The notes beneath the pieces were generated by a model that was not told the origin of the DNA, ran no database searches, and worked only from the letters and a program-made list of their open reading frames with translations. DNA of 41,385 nucleotides from Acidobacteriota bacterium (GTDB lineage Bacteria > Acidobacteriota > Terriglobia > Terriglobales > Acidobacteriaceae), in NCBI GenBank assembly GCA_003225055.1, contig QIAU01000045.1, positions 1 to 41,385 on the forward strand. The letters run 5' to 3'. Shown here one piece after another: positions 6,325 through 33,227 of the stretch. The first letter of the stretch is position 1; every line of letters begins with the position of its first letter. Position numbers and translations under genes: made by a program.

Positions 6325-6813
6325 AAACCTGTTCGGATTCAACGCGGTTGCTGCAGTGGCTCAAAATCCGCAATACCGGCTTACACGCGGCGAGGGAGTT
6401 GCATAGTGCAACCTCCATAAGAGGGCGGTACCTTATCGTGGTTCTTTTGAGCCTTGCGGGTCAGGTCTTTGCAACAGCTCAGAGAGTACCTAATAATGAA
6501 GCGTTCGAGCGCGTTTCAATTGGCGCATACGACCCGGAGGCGTGGAACGGAATAGTGTTTGATGCTGCAGCTTTGGGACAACGGTTGCCCTTTGCAATAC
6601 GAGTTGGGTCGAAGTCTGAAAAGTTTCTTGAATGGAGATCGGGTATTCGACGCTGTATGCGAAGTAGGCCAGCAGGCACCCGACGGCTCTTATGCGCGGA
6701 TGAGTTGGAGCCATTTCCCTCGAACGGCCGCGGTCACGCTAGAATGGGCACGTATTGATGCGACGACCGTGGTGGGAAGGATTAAGGCAGTGGGACTGGG
6801 AGGACCTTCCTGA
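6318..6813 (+). pseudogene. Secreted protein of unknown family, frameshifted
   Basis: The first frame from about 6318 contains a signal-peptide-like segment (RGRYLIVVLLSLAGQVFATA) followed by AQRVPNNEAF, ERVSIGAYDPEAWNGIVFD. Past about 6560 this frame loses protein character. The neighbouring frame reads MLQLWDNGCPLQYELG, then KSFLNGDRVFDAVCEVGQQ and SWSHFPRTAAVTLEWARID ending at 6813. The two pieces probably formed one exported protein of about 160 residues. The exact frameshift is somewhere between about 6550 and 6640. I do not recognise the family. It ends 10 bases before the NHL-repeat gene, so it may once have been the first gene of that operon. Confidence 0.5.
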
Positions 6814-7929: not shown

Positions 7930-7976
7930 GGAATTCTCGGGGCGGGGTCGGTTTGTTTCCTATAGGTAGGTCTAGC

Positions 7977-10900
7977 ATGAACAAAGGTTTTACATTTCGT
8001 GTTGGTAACTTGAAAGTTGCTGCGCTTTCTATTTTTGCATTAGCTGCATTGTTGGCTTGGCCCCGTGTGAGTTCTCTCTTCCCAGGAATGTCGCGCAATA
8101 AGGTGGCCTTCAGTCGCGACATCAGACCAATTCTGAATCAGAATTGCGTCATTTGCCACGGGGGAGTCCGCCAGAAAAATGGTGTTTCGTTCATATTCCG
8201 CGAGGAAGCGTTGGGTGTCGGCAAGTCCGGGCGGCGCACCATAGTGCCAGGCAACCCCACAGCTTCCGAGTTGATGGCGCGTGTGACCTCCACGGATCCC
8301 GAAACGCGTATGCCTTATCATGCTTCACCGCTGCCGCCGCAGCAGATTGCCCTACTTCGCCAATGGATCAAGGAGGGAGCCAACTGGGAGGACTATTGGG
8401 CGTTTGTACCACCCAAGGCTCAGCCCTTGCCGAAAGTTAGGCGAGCGGATTGGGCGCGCCAAGCCGTGGATCAATTTATTCTGGCGCGGTTGGAGAAAGA
8501 AGGGTTGGCACCGTCTCCTGAAGCCGACAAGGCAGCCCTGTTGCGCCGGGTGTCTTTCGACCTCACCGGACTGCCGCCTACAGCCGAGGAAGAAGCAGCG
8601 TATCTGGCGGATTCCTCCCCCAACGCTTACGAAAAACAGGTGGATCGTTTGCTGGCTTCGCCACGCTATGGCGAACGCTGGGCGTCCATGTGGCTGGACT
8701 TGGCACGATATGCGGATACAAAAGGTTACGAAAAGGACCGGGAGCGCCCGGGAGTCTGGCCCTATCGCGACTGGGTGATTGACGCCTTCAATCGCAATCT
8801 GCCTTACGATCAGTTCGTGATCAAACAGTTGGCCGGAGACTTGCTTCCCGAAGCCACCTTTGAGGACCGCATCGCTAGCTCCTTTCATCGGCAGACTCCA
8901 GGCAACGACGAGGGCGGCACCGATGATGAGGAATTCCGCATGGTCGCGGTTATGGACCGCGTCGCCACAACCTGGTCGGTGCTGAACGGGGTCACAATCA
9001 ATTGCGTGCAGTGCCACTCGCATCCCTACGATCCAATTCGGCATACCGACTATTACAAGTCCTTGGCCTTCTTCAATACGCAGCGTGATGAGGACCTTGA
9101 CGATGACAGCCCGAACCTGAGGGTTCCAAAAGATAGGGCCCGCTATCCAGAAGCGGCGCAAATACAAGAGGAGATCGCCAGATTGCTCCGCGCGGTCGAG
9201 ACCTCAGACCGCCAAGTGGAAGACAAAGCGCAATGGAAACCACTGCCTATCCAGACTGCCGTAGCCAATGAGGCCATGGCATTGGAGCAGGTGGTTCCGG
9301 ACCTACAGCAGAAGCTAACTGAACTGCAAGAAAAGAAGAAGATTTCGCCGAAGGAAAAGGCCGAGCAGCTGAAGGGTCTGCACGAAGACATCGAACGGAC
9401 CAAGACAAGGCTTGCTCATGCCAAGATCACCGGCTCGGCAAAGACTTTCCGCATCCATGACGGGGAGGCTCTGGCCAATGCAAATACTCCACCGCAATCT
9501 TTCTATGAGTTGACAGCGAATGCTAACCTTCCTCTTCTGACGGCGATTCGCATTGCGGTGCCGCCTCTGAACGAAGAAAAAGCCCGTCACACGCCCGAAT
9601 ACGGCTTCATCGTGGACAAGGTGCAGGCTTGGTTGATTCAGTCAGGTGGCAAACAAGACAAAATTGCCTTCCGTTACTTTGTGCAGGATTCGGAAACGAA
9701 CCTGGAAGCCGCCGTATCGGTCGGTAGCGATCCAAAGCAAAAGCTGAAAGAGGTGGATCCGGTCCCGAGTGCATTTGCGGCCCTGCCCAAACTTTTTCGA
9801 ACTCGCTGGATTGTAGGAGTTCCCACCACGCCGTTGCAATTGGCACGAGGCAGCCGCATCAAGGTTGATCTCAAACAAATACAGCGCATTAACGACAAGC
9901 CCGCTCTCATTCAACGGGTTAGTCTCGCGGTAAGTGATGACCCATCCTGGACATCTTTGGCGAAGGCCCCCGTGCGGGCTCGGAACATCGAGCGCCTCAA
10001 AGAGCTCGAGAAGCAATTGGCGAAAATTCCCAGTGTGCCGCTTCCGGTGATGGCGGAAGAGGCGCCATATGAGCAAAGGGCCACGTTGGAATTCGAGCGA
10101 GGCAATTTTCTAACTAAGATAGGTCCAGAGTTGGAGCCGGACGTACCTGGAATTTTCCCCAAGCTTCCCGCAAGTGCTCCACGCAACCGGCTGACCCTCG
10201 CGAAGTGGTTCTTTACACCCGGACAACCGCTCACCGCGCGTGTTGCGGTCAACCGTTACTGGGAAGAGCTTTTCGGGACAGGGGTCGTTGAGACGTTGGA
10301 AAACTTCGGTAGCGTTGGCGAAGAACCTAGCCACCCAGAACTTCTGGATTGGCTCGCACTACACTTCCAAAACGACCTCCATTGGGATATGAAGGCGCTG
10401 TTACGCGAGTTGGTGACCAGCGCGACGTATCGGCAGAGCGCGACGACAACGCCGGCCCAGACGGCGAGAGATCCGCGCAATCGTCTATTGGCTCATGGCC
10501 CGCAGCAAAGACTCACCGCAGAGATGGTGCGCGATCAGGCGCTGCTAGCCAGCGGCCTCCTGAGTACCGAGATGGGAGGGCCTCCGGTCATGCCGCCGCA
10601 ACCGGCCGGAGTTTGGAATACGGTTTATAACGACTCCAAATGGACCGACGCGACCGGCCCCAACCGTTATCGCCGGGCGGTCTATACCTACGTCAAGCGC
10701 ACCAGCGGCTATCCGAGCTTCCTGATGTTTGATGCCTCGGATCGCGATACAAGTCTCCCCAGGCGCATTCCGACAAACACCCCGTTGCAAGCACTTGTGA
10801 CGTTGAACGACCCGGTGTATCAGGAAGCCGCCGAAGCACTGGCGAAACGGGTAATGGAGACGATCCCCGCAAAGACATCCAGCGCCTCTGGTGCCGGTGA

Positions 10901-11150
10901 AACTCTCCCTGCCCGCCTTGCCTATGAAACGCGCCTAGTCCTGTCTCGCGATCCTACGCCTGGCGAATTGACAGCCCTGCGCGCGTTCTATAGCAAAGCC
11001 CTGGGAACGCCAAGGGAACCAGCTTTGGTAAATGCAAGTACCAAGCTTGAAAAATGGCCGACGAAACGAATTTCAAGCAGAGAAGAACTGGACGCGCTCA
11101 CAGCGGTGGGTAGCATCCTGTTGAATATCGATGCCGCTCTCACTAGGTGA
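7977..11150 (+). CDS. Planctomycete-type cytochrome c, DUF1549/DUF1553 protein
   Basis: 1057 residues from ATG 7977. Residues 12-30 form a signal or anchor helix (KVAALSIFALAALLAW). Residues 46-130 are a PSCyt1 haem domain with C57-x-x-C60-H61 (CVICHGG). Residues about 155-360 are DUF1549/PSCyt2 (FILARLEKEGLAPS, RRVSFDLTGLPPT, RYGERWASMWLDLARYADTK), including a second haem-type motif C343-x-x-C346-H347 before SHPYDPI. A coiled-coil-rich insert follows (about 385-490), and the C-terminus is DUF1553 (RVAVNRYWEELFGTGVVET, FGSVGEEPSHPELLDWLA, RRIPTNTPLQALVTLNDPVY). Such proteins are always paired with DUF1501 proteins, as here, and are thought to be envelope oxidative enzymes. Substrates are unproven. 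The stop overlaps the first ATG candidates of the next gene. Confidence 0.9.
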   Translation: MNKGFTFRVGNLKVAALSIFALAALLAWPRVSSLFPGMSRNKVAFSRDIRPILNQNCVICHGGVRQKNGVSFIFREEALGVGKSGRRTIVPGNPTASELMARVTSTDPETRMPYHASPLPPQQIALLRQWIKEGANWEDYWAFVPPKAQPLPKVRRADWARQAVDQFILARLEKEGLAPSPEADKAALLRRVSFDLTGLPPTAEEEAAYLADSSPNAYEKQVDRLLASPRYGERWASMWLDLARYADTKGYEKDRERPGVWPYRDWVIDAFNRNLPYDQFVIKQLAGDLLPEATFEDRIASSFHRQTPGNDEGGTDDEEFRMVAVMDRVATTWSVLNGVTINCVQCHSHPYDPIRHTDYYKSLAFFNTQRDEDLDDDSPNLRVPKDRARYPEAAQIQEEIARLLRAVETSDRQVEDKAQWKPLPIQTAVANEAMALEQVVPDLQQKLTELQEKKKISPKEKAEQLKGLHEDIERTKTRLAHAKITGSAKTFRIHDGEALANANTPPQSFYELTANANLPLLTAIRIAVPPLNEEKARHTPEYGFIVDKVQAWLIQSGGKQDKIAFRYFVQDSETNLEAAVSVGSDPKQKLKEVDPVPSAFAALPKLFRTRWIVGVPTTPLQLARGSRIKVDLKQIQRINDKPALIQRVSLAVSDDPSWTSLAKAPVRARNIERLKELEKQLAKIPSVPLPVMAEEAPYEQRATLEFERGNFLTKIGPELEPDVPGIFPKLPASAPRNRLTLAKWFFTPGQPLTARVAVNRYWEELFGTGVVETLENFGSVGEEPSHPELLDWLALHFQNDLHWDMKALLRELVTSATYRQSATTTPAQTARDPRNRLLAHGPQQRLTAEMVRDQALLASGLLSTEMGGPPVMPPQPAGVWNTVYNDSKWTDATGPNRYRRAVYTYVKRTSGYPSFLMFDASDRDTSLPRRIPTNTPLQALVTLNDPVYQEAAEALAKRVMETIPAKTSSASGAGETLPARLAYETRLVLSRDPTPGELTALRAFYSKALGTPREPALVNASTKLEKWPTKRISSREELDALTAVGSILLNIDAALTR

Positions 11151-11155
11151 TGCTT

Positions 11156-12733
11156 ATGTCAAATTCCAAAATCCCCGATCTGCACACTACAAATGGCCCC
11201 TGCGATGGCGAACCTGTCCGAGAAATGCATCCAGAGGAAACATTCGCGCGGCTGCAAGCGCAAACTCGACGTCACTTTCTGCGCAGCCTCACCGCGGGCG
11301 TGGGCACCATGTTCCTCGGCACATTGGCGTCGCAATACGGCAGTTCAGCAAGGGCCGCCGAACTGAACCTCGATGGGACGCGGCGGCTCGATTTCACGCG
11401 CGATCCTTCCCGCCCACTTGCAGCCTTGCCGCCGCAATTTGCCGCCCGCGCTAAACGCATCATCTATTTGCACATGGCGGGTGCACCCAGCCAACTGGAG
11501 CTGTTTGAGTACAAACCTGAATTGACCAAGCTCGATGGTCAGGACTGCCCCGCTTCATTTTTGCTTGGCAAGCGCTTTGCCTTCATCAGCGGCGTGCCCA
11601 AGTTGCTCGGCTCGCAGTATCCATTTCACCAGGCCGGAAAAAGCGGCCAATGGATATCGGATCGCTTGCCGCACTTGGAAAAACACATTGACGACCTTTG
11701 CATTATCAAGTCCATGCGTACCGATCAGTTCAACCATGCGCCGGCGCAGCTCCTGGTGCAGACCGGCAATGCACGTCTCGGCTATCCCTCGTTCGGCTCG
11801 TGGGTGATCTATGGACTGGGCACCGAAAATCAGAACCTTCCGGGTTTCATCGTGCTGCTATCAGGCGGCAAGTCGCCGGATGGTGGCAAACAACTGTGGG
11901 GCTCTGGCTTTCTGCCCAGTGTTTATCAGGGCGTGCAATGCCGTTCTCATGGAGAGCCTGTGCTCTACCTCCAAAATCCACGAGGTGTGAGCCGTTCTCT
12001 GCGCCGCAGTGAACTGGATACGATTGACAAAATCAATCAGCAAACCTATGCCGCCTTCGGCAATCCTGAAACTATCACGCGAATTTCGCAATACGAGATG
12101 GCGTTCCGCATGCAAATGGACGCCACTGACGCCATGGACATCCACAAGGAACCAGCCGCCGTACTCACAAACTACGGCTCAAAACCTGGCGAGTCCAGTT
12201 TTGCAAACAATTGCTTGGTAGCGCGCCGGTTAGCGGAGCGGGGGGTACGTTTCATTCAGCTCTATCATTGGGGTTGGGACTCACACGGGTCAAATGCAAA
12301 GGAGGCGCTGAATCTCGGTTTCGCCGACCGTTGCCGTGAAGTCGATCAGCCCATTGCTGCACTGCTGGCTGATCTCAAACAACGCGGCATGTTGGAAGAT
12401 ACCCTCGTGGTCTGGGGCGGTGAATTCGGACGCACGTCCATGCGGGAAAATCGCTTCGGTCAAGTCATGCAATTTGTCGGGCGCGATCACAATCCGGGCG
12501 CCTTCACCATATGGATGGCCGGCGGTGGAATTAAGCCAGGCACAACCTACGGCGAGACCGACGCCATGGGCTATGAGATCGTGAAGGATGCAGTGGAGAT
12601 TCGAGATCTGCACGCAACCATGCTCTACGTGCTGGGGTTTGATTATCACAAACTCAACTACTCTTTTCAGGGGCTGGAACAGAAGCTCACCAGCGTGAAA
12701 CCCGCGCGGGTTGTGGCGGAGGTTCTGGCGTGA
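11156..12733 (+). CDS. DUF1501 exported sulfatase-like protein
   Basis: 525 residues from ATG 11156, chosen because AGGTGA lies 5 bases upstream. GTG 11147 and ATG 11150 are possible earlier starts. A Tat signal is present at residues about 36-65 (RRHFLRSLTAGVGTMFLG). Diagnostic DUF1501 segments follow: IYLHMAGAPSQLELFEYKP, HAPAQLLVQTGNARLGYPSF, GSWVIYGLGTENQNLPGF, GVRFIQLYHWGWDSHGSN, and near the end VVWGGEFGRTSMRENRFG with GRDHNPGAFTIWMAGGGI. The fold resembles alkaline phosphatase/sulfatase superfamily proteins, with Asp/His metal ligands in WDSHG and GRDHN, but no enzymatic activity is established for the family. It overlaps or directly follows the DUF1553 gene, so translation is probably coupled. 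Confidence 0.9.
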   Translation: MSNSKIPDLHTTNGPCDGEPVREMHPEETFARLQAQTRRHFLRSLTAGVGTMFLGTLASQYGSSARAAELNLDGTRRLDFTRDPSRPLAALPPQFAARAKRIIYLHMAGAPSQLELFEYKPELTKLDGQDCPASFLLGKRFAFISGVPKLLGSQYPFHQAGKSGQWISDRLPHLEKHIDDLCIIKSMRTDQFNHAPAQLLVQTGNARLGYPSFGSWVIYGLGTENQNLPGFIVLLSGGKSPDGGKQLWGSGFLPSVYQGVQCRSHGEPVLYLQNPRGVSRSLRRSELDTIDKINQQTYAAFGNPETITRISQYEMAFRMQMDATDAMDIHKEPAAVLTNYGSKPGESSFANNCLVARRLAERGVRFIQLYHWGWDSHGSNAKEALNLGFADRCREVDQPIAALLADLKQRGMLEDTLVVWGGEFGRTSMRENRFGQVMQFVGRDHNPGAFTIWMAGGGIKPGTTYGETDAMGYEIVKDAVEIRDLHATMLYVLGFDYHKLNYSFQGLEQKLTSVKPARVVAEVLA

Positions 12734-27997: not shown

Positions 27998-28073
27998 TCG
28001 TGCTCATCATAACGGATTGACGGCAAGGACACGGAATCAAAGGGCTTGCTTGCTGCTGCCTCGATCCGCATGC

Positions 28074-28117
28074 GAATGCGAAGAAACGAATGCGAAGAAA
28101 CACGAATGCGAAGAAAC
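28074..28117. repeat. Three 14-bp direct repeats in divergent promoter region
   Basis: GAATGCGAAGAAAC occurs at 28074-28087, 28088-28101 and 28104-28117. The array lies about 75 bases upstream of the divergent aminotransferase start and about 100 bases upstream of the formate dehydrogenase start. It could be a protein-binding array or simple slippage. Confidence 0.8.
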
Positions 28118-28216
28118 CGTTGCTTCGGACGCGGTTTCGTGGCAACCTCTTCTGCCACCAGAGACTCCAAAAGATGCGGGTTATCTCGTTTCACGACTTA
28201 TTCTGCGGAGCTGGCT

Positions 28217-31200
28217 GTGCTCAAGGATCTTCTCTCTCGCTGGCCACTGATCCAACAAATTCAAACGGGCGCTGACGGAACCGGTCCGGAGGCGATGAGT
28301 GAGCGCACTCGCAACCTGCGTCCCAAGACCGATGGCGCCGAGGTGGCGCGTTCCATCTGCCCCTATTGCGGCGTGGGCTGCGGGCAGCTTGTTTTCCACA
28401 AAGACGGGAAACTGATTTCCATCGAAGGCGATCCGGAATCACCGATTTCCCGCGGGCATCTTTGTCCCAAAGGCGCCGACACCTATGAGCTGCACACGCA
28501 TCCCGGGCGCCTGACAAAAGTTAAATACCGCCGGCCGTATTCGCGTCACTGGGACCAGATCGAGCTGGAACAGGCGATGGATAGGGTGGCCGAACGGCTA
28601 TGGGAATCGCGCGAGCGTACCTTCCAGGAAACTTGCGACGGCGAAACCCTGATGCAGACAACCGCGATCGCTCACCTGGGCGGCGCGACGCTCGATATCG
28701 AAGAGAATTACCTCATCCGCAAGCTATTCACCGTAGGCCTGGGAATGGTATCGATCAGCAACCAGGCGCGAATATGACACAGCTCTACGGTGCCCGGTCT
28801 GGGCACATCGTTTGGGCGCGGCGGTGCCACGACGGCGCAACAGGATCTCAGTAACGCGGACGCGATCCTGATCATGGGGTCGTCGATGGCAGAAAACCAC
28901 CCGGTCGGCTTCCAGTGGGTCATGGAGGCGCGCGAAAAGGGCGCGAAGGTGATCCACGTGGACCCGCGCTACACGCGAACTTCAGCCATGGCCGATATAT
29001 GGCTGCCTTTGCGAGCCGGGACGGACATTCTATTCCTGGGGGCGCTGGTCAATTACGTTCTCGAAAATAATCGGGAATTCCGCGAGTACGTAGTCCATTA
29101 CACGAATGCGTCTGCCATCTTGCGCGAAGACTTTCGCGACACCGAAGACCTGGACGGCTTGTTCTCGGGGTGGGATGCCCCAAAAAACAAGTACAGCCCT
29201 GAGAGCTGGCTGTATCAAGGCGCTCCCAGCAAGGAAACCGGTGGCGAGAAGGCCGGGCACTCCGACGTCGGTGGTGGCCATGGCAAAGACCGGGGCGGCG
29301 AGGCGCAGGATGCGAGCCAGTTCGAGTCGGATCCCACGCTTGAACATCCACGGTGCGTCTTCCAGGTGCTCAAGCGTCACTTCTCGCGCTATACGCCCGA
29401 AATGGTGGAGCGCTACTGCGGGGTTCCCGAAGACGTCTTCCTGAAAGCGGCGGATGCCTTCAGTTCGGCATCAGGGCCGGAAAGGACGGCGGCTATCTGT
29501 TACGCGGTCGGGTGGACTCAGCATTCGAAGGGTGTGCAGATCATTCGTACGGCGTCGATCCTGCAGCTGCTGCTGGGGAATATTGGGCGTCCGGGCGGCG
29601 GGATTCTTGCTCTGCGCGGGCACGCCTCGATCCAGGGTTCGACTGATATCCCAACCTTGTACGACATCCTGCCGGGCTACCTGCCCATGCCGTTGTTCGA
29701 GTCGGACTCGCACCAGCTCGAGGATTACATCAAGAAACACAGCACGCGAACGGGATTGTGGTCGAAGTTCGACCACTACTTCGTCAGCCTGATGAAGGCA
29801 TACTACGGGGACGGCGCCGCCAAAGACAATGATTGGGGCTTTCACTGGCTGCCACGGATAACGGGCGATCATTCGCACTTTGGCTACTGGCTCGATATGG
29901 CCGATGGCAAGCTCGAAGGCCTCTTCGTCATGGGCCAGAACCCAGCGGTAGGCGCTTCCAACGGGCGGCTTGAACGCAAGGCCCTGGCCAAATTGAAATG
30001 GCTGGTGGTGCGTGACATGGTCGAGACCGAGACCGCTTCGTTCTGGTATGCCTCGCCGGAGGTGGAACGCGGGGAGCTTTCGCCGGAGACGATTGGAACT
30101 GAGGTGTTCCTGTTCCCGGCTGCGGGGACGGCGGAGAAAGCAGGAACCTTTACCAACACGCAGCGGCTGCTGCAGCATCGGGAAAAGGCGGTTGATCCGC
30201 CCGGGGATGCGCGCAGCGAGGCCTGGTTCATGTACCACCTCGGCCGACGAATAAAGGAGAAGGCGAAGAATGACGCGCGGTCCCGCAATGCTGGGCTGAG
30301 AGCCTTAACTTGGAATTACTCCGTCGAGGGGCTACACACCGAGCCCAAGGTGGACGAGATCTTAGAGGAGATCAACGGCTATACCCTTCCCGGTCGCGTA
30401 CAACTGACGAAGATCAAGGAGCTGAGGAATGACGGCTCGACAGCCTGCGGGGCATGGATTTACTGCGGAGTGTTTCCGGAGCCGGGTCATAACCGAGCCA
30501 ACGAACGCAATCCGAGAGATCTGCTCGGCCACGGATGGGGTTTTTCCTGGCCCAACGACTGCCGAATCATTTACAACCGGGCATCGGCGCGCCCCGATGG
30601 TCAGCCCTGGAGCGAGCGCAAGAAACTGGTCTGGTGGGACGAAGAAAAGAAAGAATGGACCGGGCTGGACAACCCCGACTATGAAAAGAATGTGGCTCCG
30701 GACGAGCCCGCAAATATTCACAGTGGTACGGGAATCAAAGCCCTAGGGGGAGCAAAGCCCTTCATCTTGCATCCTGACGGCGTGGGCTGGATTTATGTGG
30801 CCAGCGGCTTGAAAGATGGCCCCCTGCCGGCACATTACGAGCCGCTGGAATCCCTGTTCCACAATCCTCTCTACCGCCAACAGACCAATCCGGGGGCGCA
30901 AAAGAAAGAGCGTCCGGATAATCCCTATGCAGAGTCCCCTGGCGATCCGCGGTTCCCCTATGTGCTCACCACATACCGGTTGACTGAGCATCACACAGCG
31001 GGTGGAATGACCAGGACGCTCTCTCACCTGGCCGAACTTCAGCCGGAGTTGTTCACCGAAATTTCGCCCGAGCTGGCGGCCGAGCTCGGATTGACGCACG
31101 GGGATTGGGCGACGATCACGACGCCACGCGGCCTAGTGGAGGCTCGTGTCATGGTTACGCCGCGCATGAGGCCCGTCCGAATCGATGGACGCGTACTTCA

Positions 31201-31402
31201 CCAGGTCGGACTTCCCTATCATTGGGGCTATCGCGGGCAGGTCACTGGAGACATTGTGAACGATCTCCTGGCCATCAGCGAAGAACCCAATGTGCGCATC
31301 ATGGAAACTAAGGCCCTGGTCTGCAACCTGGTCCCGGGGCGACGGGCGCGCGGCAGCGCGGCCCGGCAGCAGCTCGATGCCCAGTTAGGACGGACGGCAT
31401 GA
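28217..31402 (+). CDS. fdnG: Formate dehydrogenase alpha subunit, selenoprotein (Sec187)
   Basis: 1061 residues if the in-frame TGA at 28775-28777 is read as selenocysteine. GTG 28217 has GGAG 6 bases upstream. An upstream ATG in the same frame (28046) would add a low-complexity tail made from repeats. The N-terminus (VLKDLLSRWPLIQQIQTG) has no Tat signal, unlike E. coli FdnG. A 4Fe-4S site follows (SICPYCGVGCGQLVFHKDGK, then SRGHLCPKGADTYELH). NQARI-U-HSSTVPGLG matches NQARV-U-H in E. coli FdnG, placing Sec at residue 187. Molybdopterin-binding parts follow: ILIMGSSMAENHPVGFQWVM, RYTRTSAMADIWLPLRAG, YAVGWTQHSKGVQIIRTASI, GRPGGGILALRGHASIQGST, and the C-terminal domain with TYRLTEHHTAGGMTRTL and GLPYHWGYRGQVTGDIVND. 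It oxidises formate to CO2. It overlaps the beta gene by ATGA. No selABCD genes lie in the window. Confidence 0.93.
28775..28815 (+). promoter_or_regulatory. Bacterial SECIS hairpin after the UGA codon
   Basis: TGA (28775-28777) is followed 18 bases later by GTGCCC (28790-28795), loop GGTCT (28796-28800) and GGGCAC (28801-28806). The loop GGUCU and the 18-base distance from the UGA to the loop are the same as in E. coli fdhF. SelB binds this loop to insert selenocysteine. Confidence 0.93.
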
Positions 31403-32187
31403 GCGTCACCGCATTTCTCACCGACTCGACGTTGTGCATTGGCTGCAAGGCTTGCGAGGTCGCGTGCAAAGAGTGGAATGGGATCGAAGGAGACGGCCTC
31501 GATTGGAGCGGCTTCTCCTACGACAACACTGGAGCGGTCGGGGCTTCCACCTGGCGGCATGTGAAATTTGTGGAACGAGCGCCCGTGCCGGGCCTGGGCG
31601 GAAATGCCGGTGAGCAGGCGTCCTGGACATTTTCTTCCGACGTTTGCAAGCACTGCGAGCAAGCCGGTTGCCTGGAAGCCTGTCCCACCGGGTCGATCGT
31701 GCGCACCGAGTTCGGCGGCGTCTTCATTCAGCCGGATGTGTGTAATGGCTGCGGCTATTGCGTGACCGCCTGCCCGTTTGGGGTCGTGGCGCGGAATGAG
31801 CAGGACGGACGCGCTTTCAAATGCACTTTCTGTTATGACCGTCAGAAAGTCGGATTGCGGCCGGCCTGCGCCAAGGCGTGCCCTACCGAGTCCATTCAGT
31901 TTGGCGAAATCGACGAGTTGCGCGAGAAGGCGCGGTTGCGACTCGAAGAATTGCATCGGCGCGGGATGGACGATGCAGCGTTTTATGATCCCACCCACAC
32001 CAGCGTTCGCGGCACACACGCCATGTTCATCATTCGTGGTGACCCGCGCACCTACAACCTCCCGCCCAGTCCCCAGGTGCCGACCATCTACCTCAAAAAA
32101 GGCTGGCGATCTTCCGCCTTGGCGGCGGGACTGCTGCTGGGCGGCACTCTGCTGGCGCTCCTGACCGACGGGAGGAGTGGAAGATGA
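31399..32187 (+). CDS. fdnH: Formate dehydrogenase beta subunit (4Fe-4S ferredoxin)
   Basis: 262 residues. Four cysteine clusters give four [4Fe-4S] sites as in FdnH/HybA: CIGCKACEVACKEWN (C13, C16, C19, C23), CKHCEQAGCLEACPTGS, CNGCGYCVTACPFGV, and CTFCYDRQKVGL with PACAKACPTES. A C-terminal hydrophobic segment (SALAAGLLLGGTLLALL) is a single membrane helix. It passes electrons from the molybdenum/selenium site to the NrfD-type membrane subunit. The start ATG overlaps the alpha stop (ATGA) and the stop overlaps the gamma start (ATGA), so the three subunits are translated as one block. Confidence 0.92.
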   Translation: MSVTAFLTDSTLCIGCKACEVACKEWNGIEGDGLDWSGFSYDNTGAVGASTWRHVKFVERAPVPGLGGNAGEQASWTFSSDVCKHCEQAGCLEACPTGSIVRTEFGGVFIQPDVCNGCGYCVTACPFGVVARNEQDGRAFKCTFCYDRQKVGLRPACAKACPTESIQFGEIDELREKARLRLEELHRRGMDDAAFYDPTHTSVRGTHAMFIIRGDPRTYNLPPSPQVPTIYLKKGWRSSALAAGLLLGGTLLALLTDGRSGR

Positions 32188-33227
32188 GCGATCCTGTGCC
32201 TTTGGGCGATCTCGTTCCCGGCCTTGAACGCGAGCGGCGGCTCGCAGAAATTCGTCGCGAGGCCGAGCGACGCGGCAAGCTGGACGTGGTCGGCGGCCGT
32301 CCCCCCGGGGCTCCCTTCCCGCAAGCGACTCCCGAAACGGGCTACTACAAAATCCCTCTGCTCAAAGAACCACCCTGGAAATGGGAGATTCCGCTGTACT
32401 TCTTTGTCGGCGGGGCAGCTGGGGCTGCGGCTGTGGTTGGAGCGATTGCCGACTACACGGGTGTGGATCGCAAACTGGTGAAACATGCCCGATGGATTGC
32501 GGCGGCGGGCTCGGTGATCTCCCCGGTGCTGCTGGTGGCCGACCTGGGGCGTCCAGCGCGCTTTCTGGCGATGTTGCGAGTGTTCAAGCCGCAGAGCCCG
32601 ATGTCGATGGGCGTCTGGACACTCGTGGGGTTCTCCAGCGGAGCCGCAGCGGCAGCGTTTGCGGGATTTCTCAGCGATCGCTACGGACCGTCGCTGCCCT
32701 TGCGTTGGCTGGAAAATGCCGGGCAGGCGGCATCGCTCGCCTTCGGACTGCCGTTCTCGAATTACACGGGCGTGCTGATTGGCGCGACTGCCATTCCCGT
32801 ATGGAACCGCAACGTAGGCGATCTTCCGTTGCACTTTGCCGCCTCGGGCCTGGCCGCGGCGGTAGGCATGCTGGAACTCATGGGACATGGCAAGAATCGC
32901 GCCCTACAAGCCTTGGGCCTGGGCGCCGGGATTTTTGAAAGCTGGGAAGGGCTGCGAATTGAGGGCCGCTCAGATCCGCATCTCGATCCCTTGAAACACG
33001 GTGCCAGCGGTTGGACCACCCGTACTGGTGGAGTGCTTTCGGGACCTGTTCCGACCATTCTGCGACTGCTTAGCGCCTTGGGCGGAAAGCGGCGGTCGGC
33101 TTCTCTTCGACGCTGGGCAGCCTGGTCGGCGATCGCGGGCTCGTTGATCACGCGCTTCGCCTGGATTCGAGCCGGGCATGCGTCGGCACGGGACTGGAAA
33201 CTGCCTCTTGAAATCAGGAGTGAGTAG
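32184..33227 (+). CDS. nrfD: NrfD-family membrane subunit of formate dehydrogenase
   Basis: 347 residues. After a soluble N-terminal stretch of about 60 residues (GYYKIPLLKEPPWKWEIPLY) come NrfD/PsrC helices: YFFVGGAAGAAAVVGAIAD, the conserved VLLVADLGRPARFLAMLRVF (quinone-site region), KPQSPMSMGVWTLVGFS, and further helices to a last one near residue 310 (AAWSAIAGSLITRFAWIRAG). NrfD proteins replace the cytochrome b gamma subunit and pass electrons to quinone without haem. The alpha subunit lacks a Tat signal, so the whole complex may face the cytoplasm. The operon ends here, 163 bases before the next gene. Confidence 0.9.
   Translation: MSDPVPLGDLVPGLERERRLAEIRREAERRGKLDVVGGRPPGAPFPQATPETGYYKIPLLKEPPWKWEIPLYFFVGGAAGAAAVVGAIADYTGVDRKLVKHARWIAAAGSVISPVLLVADLGRPARFLAMLRVFKPQSPMSMGVWTLVGFSSGAAAAAFAGFLSDRYGPSLPLRWLENAGQAASLAFGLPFSNYTGVLIGATAIPVWNRNVGDLPLHFAASGLAAAVGMLELMGHGKNRALQALGLGAGIFESWEGLRIEGRSDPHLDPLKHGASGWTTRTGGVLSGPVPTILRLLSALGGKRRSASLRRWAAWSAIAGSLITRFAWIRAGHASARDWKLPLEIRSE

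Follow-up and report, generated by a model that had tools for sequence, protein, structure and literature searches.

One fdhA gene with an in-frame UGA, almost certainly decoded as selenocysteine, in an acidobacterial genome

Introduction

Two formate dehydrogenases (FDHs) serve here as the described systems for comparison: FDH1 of A. chiangmaiensis DSM 45062, a species whose genus we take to be Actinomycetospora, and FdnGHI of Escherichia coli, in which FdnI is a b-type cytochrome. According to excerpts of the published account, FDH1 is a membrane-bound enzyme made of an alpha subunit (1078 aa, containing selenocysteine, Sec), a beta subunit, and a gamma subunit; its presence in the proteome was reported, and the strain removed formate in a selenium/selenite-dependent manner (PMC7176365). 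Passages of a 2026 review describe FdhA as the selenoprotein family with the widest distribution in bacteria and state that automated annotation cuts such selenoprotein genes short (PMC13188914). For Acidobacteria, four selenoproteins of three families were listed in 2006 in the part of that report considered here (PMC1794560).

Here, we analyzed a stretch of 41,385 nucleotides, referred to as the window (contig QIAU01000045.1, assembly GCA_003225055.1), from an Acidobacteriota bacterium of the order Terriglobales. We conclude, with a probability of roughly 0.97, that the window carries a single fdhA gene for the Mo- or W-containing catalytic subunit of a membrane-bound FdhABC, in which UGA 187 is decoded as Sec. 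The gene is of an ordinary, well-known kind of selenoprotein, and Acidobacteria were already on record in 2006. The result matters for annotation, in which fdhA should stand whole and the genome should count as Sec decoding.

Results and Discussion

The fdhA reading frame

The coding region comprises the following features:

28217 to 31402, plus strand: fdhA, predicted formate dehydrogenase catalytic subunit, 1061 aa, GTG start, selenocysteine almost certainly at residue 187
28775 to 28777, plus strand: TGA codon almost certainly read as selenocysteine, aligned with the Sec of 1kqf

Translated with TGA as U, the frame 28217-31402 spans 1062 codons including the stop; it ends with the terminal TGA at 31400-31402, ahead of which the internal TGA at residue 187 is the only stop. 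The initial annotation had claimed one selenoprotein gene, with its TGA in the context NQARI-U-HSS at the place of Sec in FdnG and with the frame open and homologous on both sides, and all of this was borne out. In an alignment, residue 187 fell into the same column as residue X (Sec) of E. coli FdnG (PDB 1kqf), to which the protein is homologous over most of its length (720 bits), the likeness extending to a SECIS_3-like element. The read-through protein matched NF041513 (formate_DH_Act) over residues 6-1053 with 1581.7 bits (cut-off of 1400) and TIGR01553 in two stretches with 920.2 bits (cut-off of 814.2), and it contains PF04879, PF00384, and PF01568, i.e., the 4Fe-4S, molybdopterin, and dinucleotide-binding domains. 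Compared with the UHxP motif as given in the review excerpt (PMC13188914), the UHSS of the window differs at the last position.

The CPYC motif follows the GTG start at 28217 at a distance of 47 codons, and 16 of 18 acidobacterial loci with output (23 were tried and 5 gave none; L111 and L112 seem to duplicate L030 and L031) have a start codon at the identical distance.

Calling of ORFs with table 11 splits fdhA into 28046-28777 and 28790-31402. The expectation that standard annotation would produce two truncated genes was thus correct for plain ORF calling, but NCBIfam holds a full-length family model, NF041513. The same two ORFs could be taken as two real genes or as the remains of a gene broken by a nonsense mutation; we regard this as extremely improbable, since the homology is full length on both sides of the TGA with NF041513 over its cut-off, the frame holds no other stop, the site is conserved across phyla, and the Sec machinery of the genome is complete, as detailed below. 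The fdhA gene is almost certainly one intact gene with an in-frame TGA read as Sec.

Operon and enzyme type

Two further subunit genes follow fdhA:

31399 to 32187, plus strand: fdhB, iron-sulfur subunit with Fer4 domains and one C-terminal hydrophobic segment, sharing 4 bases with the end of fdhA
32184 to 33227, plus strand: fdhC, NrfD-type membrane subunit (PF03916, 46.5 bits; cut-off of 25.8)

FdhB scored 198.2 bits against TIGR01582, under the cut-off of 334.7, and in FdhC no more than two segments were picked out by a crude scan of hydropathy. Of 23 acidobacterial loci, 21 contain fdhB and fdhC along with fdhA, and 2 contain fdhA alone. In a set of 66 relatives that are more distant, tblastn matches at any position in the locus were counted: 64 have one for fdhB and 59 have one for fdhC. 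When nine window proteins were sought in 89 loci, the upstream aminotransferase alone recurred somewhat besides fdhA, fdhB, and fdhC (6 of the 23 acidobacterial loci); the downstream lactate/malate dehydrogenase-like gene of the window was found in none. Farther away, at 7953-12733, the window holds two ORFs that, to judge by eye from the translations, resemble known families: a long one that looks PSD1/cytochrome-like and, after it, one that looks DUF1501-like.

The likeness to FdnG that the initial annotation had drawn holds for the Sec column and fails for the layout. By eye, the FdhA N-terminus (VLKDLLSRWPLIQQIQTG...) shows no twin-arginine motif, which marks the periplasmic, Tat-exported FdnG subfamily, and the third subunit is of the NrfD type where FdnGHI has FdnI; because of these two traits, and with NF041513 as its best NCBIfam model, FdhA is unlike FdnG in layout. 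This arrangement suggests that FdhABC is membrane bound with its catalytic site on the cytoplasmic side. FDH1 of A. chiangmaiensis has the same three subunits as the FDH of the window, a likeness that goes by the description in the excerpted account (PMC7176365).

Conservation of the Sec site

A scan of genome contigs yielded at least 587 confirmed candidates, the best 80 of which were used as relatives. At the Sec site, these 80 carry TGA in 78 cases, TAG in 1 (L086), and TGC in 1 (L101), and the site is conserved across phyla. Among the matches listed, the closest relatives were Acidobacteriota MAGs, with 68-83% identity in the best segment, whereas the actinobacterial relatives showed approximately 54-58% identity; TGA and the hairpin described below are common to these actinobacterial relatives except L086 and L101. 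FdhA is a full-length, over-cut-off match to NF041513 whose nearest listed relatives are not actinobacteria; the "Act" of formate_DH_Act, to judge from the name, presumably stands for actinobacteria. In L101 (Actinomadura rayongensis), where TGC encodes Cys, loop position 24 is G and not U; in this one sequence, the change is what would be expected of a hairpin maintained solely for Sec.

The TGA is one base away from both TGC and TGT, and a relative with TGC at the site exists, so that a sequencing or assembly error in a Cys codon might have produced it. Against such an error stand the TGA in 78 of the best 80 of at least 587 relatives, the in-frame TGA also carried by a second FDH gene and by selD of the same genome, and the conserved hairpin. 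Because relatives carry TGA at the Sec site, we judge an error to be very unlikely, with a probability as slight as that of a broken or double gene.

A separate observation concerns L086 (Geodermatophilus), in which the Sec site is TAG (6559-6561) and the hairpin and its loop are kept. According to Mukai and colleagues, Geodermatophilaceae reportedly use UAG for Sec. No tRNA genes were found within the 12-kb locus of L086.

The SECIS hairpin

Downstream of the internal TGA, the following RNA elements were delineated:

28772 to 28833, plus strand: candidate SECIS element, Rfam SECIS_3-like
28790 to 28806, plus strand: SECIS apical hairpin, arms 28790-28795 and 28801-28806, loop GGTCT at 28796-28800, supported by pairing and covariation

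The 6-bp stem begins 12 nt past the TGA (28790) and the loop GGTCT 18 nt past it; the initial annotation had let the hairpin itself begin 18 bases after the TGA, which is correct for the loop and not for the stem. In a relaxed search, the element scored 39.3 bits (E value of 1.2e-7) against RF01989 (SECIS_3), and we call it SECIS_3-like because this score is below the gathering score of 63. At the gathering threshold, Rfam recognized no RNA family anywhere in the window. Applied to four loci (E value of ≤0.1), the relaxed search also matched L025, the locus of the second FDH gene (70.1 bits), and, weakly, L086 (28.4 bits; E value of 0.02), with no match in the SelD locus L021 or in the TGC locus L101. 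RNA folding, proposed by the initial annotation as a check, gave energy z scores of -1.68 (35-nt stretch), -0.77 (41 nt), -1.56 (51 nt), and -0.28 (81 nt). Such energies do not set the hairpin apart, and taken alone the measure is uninformative; the evidence for the hairpin lies in the SECIS_3 match, sub-gathering as it is, and in covariation.

Base pairing was evaluated in 79 sequences, comprising the window and 78 relatives with TGA or TAG (L076 and the TGC-containing L101 were left out). In 78 of the 79, the Val codon and the Gly codon can pair through their third bases (C-G, 47; G-C, 19; T-G, 7; T-A, 5; G-G, 1), compared with a mean of 46.7 after shuffling, and none of 10,000 shuffles reached 78, kinship being ignored in this comparison. 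In a set of 26 sequences selected to be diverse (24 relatives plus the window and L025), the covariation score was 0.266 versus 0.094 for shuffled alignments, 0 of 500 reaching the observed value, and versus at most 0.045 for slid versions, kinship again being ignored. The Gly/Ser codon of the loop is always GGT (67) or AGT (12) among the 79, while GGT is the least used of the Gly codons across the whole fdhA of the window (GGC, 44; GGG, 31; GGA, 15; GGT, 14). Since both the third-position pairing and the loop codon are kept beyond the needs of the protein, they support the hairpin.

Counted from the U of UGA, T17, G23, and T24 are invariant in all 79 sequences with TGA or TAG. We take U17, G23, and U24 to be the SelB contacts in E. 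coli fdhF, and T 28791 and GT 28797-28798 occupy these positions in the window. The locus shows what generally characterizes a bacterial SECIS element, namely, a stem-loop right after the UGA, a conserved G-U in the loop, and compensatory change.

Selenocysteine machinery of the genome

The genome that contains the window (G000; 7.41 Mb in 301 contigs, 98.73% complete) has two FDH loci, L024 and L025. The initial annotation had predicted a SelABCD system elsewhere in this genome and had named the absence of selB and tRNA-Sec as evidence that would tell against its reading; selA, selB, selC, and selD were all found. SelB (contig C292) scored 355.6 bits (cut-off of 242.25) and contains GTPase and SelB winged-helix domains, SelA (C23) scored 528.4 bits with both pieces taken together (cut-off of 267.9), and SelD (C256) scored 347.8 bits (cut-off of 125). 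The tRNA-Sec gene (C67) scored 69.4 bits (gathering score of 47), and its anticodon according to ARAGORN is tca (UCA). The four sel genes and fdhA lie on five separate contigs; for A. chiangmaiensis, the excerpted report lists selA and selB together with the FDH1 cluster (PMC7176365).

Because RF01852 also matches control genomes (all 14 of them, 5 over cut-off), it is by itself a poor test for tRNA-Sec, and ARAGORN, run on four of eight candidate tRNA loci, separated tRNA-Sec from tRNA-Ser. A second over-cut-off RF01852 match in G000 (48 bits) proved to be a tRNA-Ser. Judged by eye from sequence and fold, the eighth acceptor-stem position of the tRNA-Sec (L013, 997-1094, minus strand) looks like a C-A mismatch, which counts against the Sec reading.

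SelD (L021, 1396-2490, minus strand) carries a single in-frame TGA, as codon 18 in the context AAGUASK, and by the look of its sequence is itself a selenoprotein. The second FDH alpha gene with an in-frame TGA (C220; L025, 1393-4632) encodes a protein 44% identical to FdhA of the window, with an N-terminal twin-arginine motif, SRRTFLK. The FdnG-like copy of this genome is this C220 gene and not the fdhA of the window.

Collectively, the sequence data lend direct support to the open frame, the alignment of the site, the hairpin with its covariation, the presence of selABCD, and the conservation across phyla. The relatives' TGA, the hairpin, the homology, and the Sec machinery led us to reject a sequencing error, a nonsense mutation, and two separate genes as explanations of the TGA. 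For its decoding as Sec, we propose that the hairpin 12 nt downstream of UGA 187 would bind SelB carrying Sec-tRNA(Sec), which would be made by SelA and SelD. Sec would be inserted at codon 187 and would then ligate Mo or W, and formate would be oxidized at the cytoplasmic face, with electrons probably passing via FdhB and the NrfD-type subunit to quinone.

Distribution across the order

We extended the comparison to 150 genomes of the order, G000 included; this sample and the 80 relatives overlap (e.g., L030 and L111) and are not independent. An FDH match at an E value of ≤1e-100 was obtained in 41 of the 150, and in 34 of these 41 a match contained an in-frame TGA. Among the 34, direct reading placed the TGA at the Sec site in the window, L025, L111-L113, and L115-L117; the remaining genomes, including those of L109, L110, and L114, which lie on the minus strand, were counted by a stop inside the FDH match, with a second stop listed in the matched stretch of G124 and G099. 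In the seven genomes left out (G012, G022, G041, G090, G109, G123, and G125), the listed matches begin past the Sec site; SelB was over cut-off in six of them, and FdhD was present in one (G109).

SelB was counted only over its cut-off, since TIGR00475 at an E value of ≤1e-50 also gathers matches below it, which are presumably other elongation factors (109 of 150 genomes match in all). By this count, SelB is present in 59 of 150 genomes, namely, in 33 of the 34 with a TGA-containing FDH versus 26 of the 116 others (Fisher P = 6e-16, kinship ignored). The one exception, G117 (99% complete, 140 contigs), yielded no SelB by profile or by protein search; its TGA-containing FDH match (L109) is 84% identical to that of the window, and SelA is present (L118). 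An assembly gap is the likeliest explanation. The points against the Sec reading are this genome without SelB, the sub-gathering SECIS_3 score, the plain folding energy, the apparent acceptor-stem mismatch of the tRNA-Sec, and the FdhD result described below.

FdhD in genomes with a TGA-containing FDH

FdhD is a sulfurtransferase and the usual helper of FDHs, acting on the FDH cofactor. Excerpts of a review describe FdhD as critical for active FDHs in E. coli and add the caveat that some FDH-expressing organisms are without fdhD (PMC10609526). FdhD is also listed for A. chiangmaiensis DSM 45062 in the excerpted account (PMC7176365), whereas G000 gave no match with TIGR00129, with PF02634, or with an alignment built from six FdhDs of the order, and so does not show the E. 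coli-like pattern of FDH maturation with FdhD in the genome. The searches were able to detect the protein: TIGR00129 found FdhD in 8 of 14 control genomes, PF02634 was present in 45 of the 150 genomes of the order with best E values of 2.3e-59 or better, and the six-FdhD profile recovered its positive controls (G145, 1.2e-119; G096, 1.5e-137, the FdhD of G096 being one of the six rows).

Surprisingly, and as a by-product of this search, no FdhD was found in 24 of the 34 genomes whose FDH match contains a TGA, G000 and G064 among them, even though the protein is essential for the FDHs of E. coli. With PF02634, FdhD was present in 10 of these 34 versus 35 of the 116 other genomes (Fisher P = 1.0, no association), and in 3 of the 15 genomes with a match at least 69% identical to the window protein. 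On the 24 genomes without FdhD, the six-FdhD profile at an E value of ≤1 returned nothing better than 0.04. A gap is no explanation in G064, a single-contig genome with SelB, two TGA-containing FDH matches, and no FdhD; for G000 taken alone, its 98.73% completeness and 301 contigs leave a slight chance of a missed fdhD.

Because FdhD was not found in the genome, the activity of FdhA is less certain than its translation. With no FdhD to sulfurate the cofactor, translation might work and the enzyme still not be an active FDH; failure of all three FdhD searches and the critical role of FdhD in E. coli (in the excerpts of PMC10609526) speak for this. On the other side, FdhD is lacking in 24 of the 34 genomes that have a TGA in their FDH match, and the gene and its SECIS element are intact where read, and we consider an inactive enzyme improbable. 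Tentatively, and at somewhat less than even odds, most Sec-containing FDHs of the order may be matured without FdhD, with another protein sulfurating the cofactor or the step being dispensed with. The neighbor search was limited to the window's own genes and was no full search for an FdhD substitute, and a literature search on FdhD returned no title about this order. If it holds, the FdhD-less distribution provides a natural collection of genomes for seeking another route of FDH activation. In G096, one of the genomes with FdhD, the protein is encoded approximately 2 kb from the TGA-containing FDH match.
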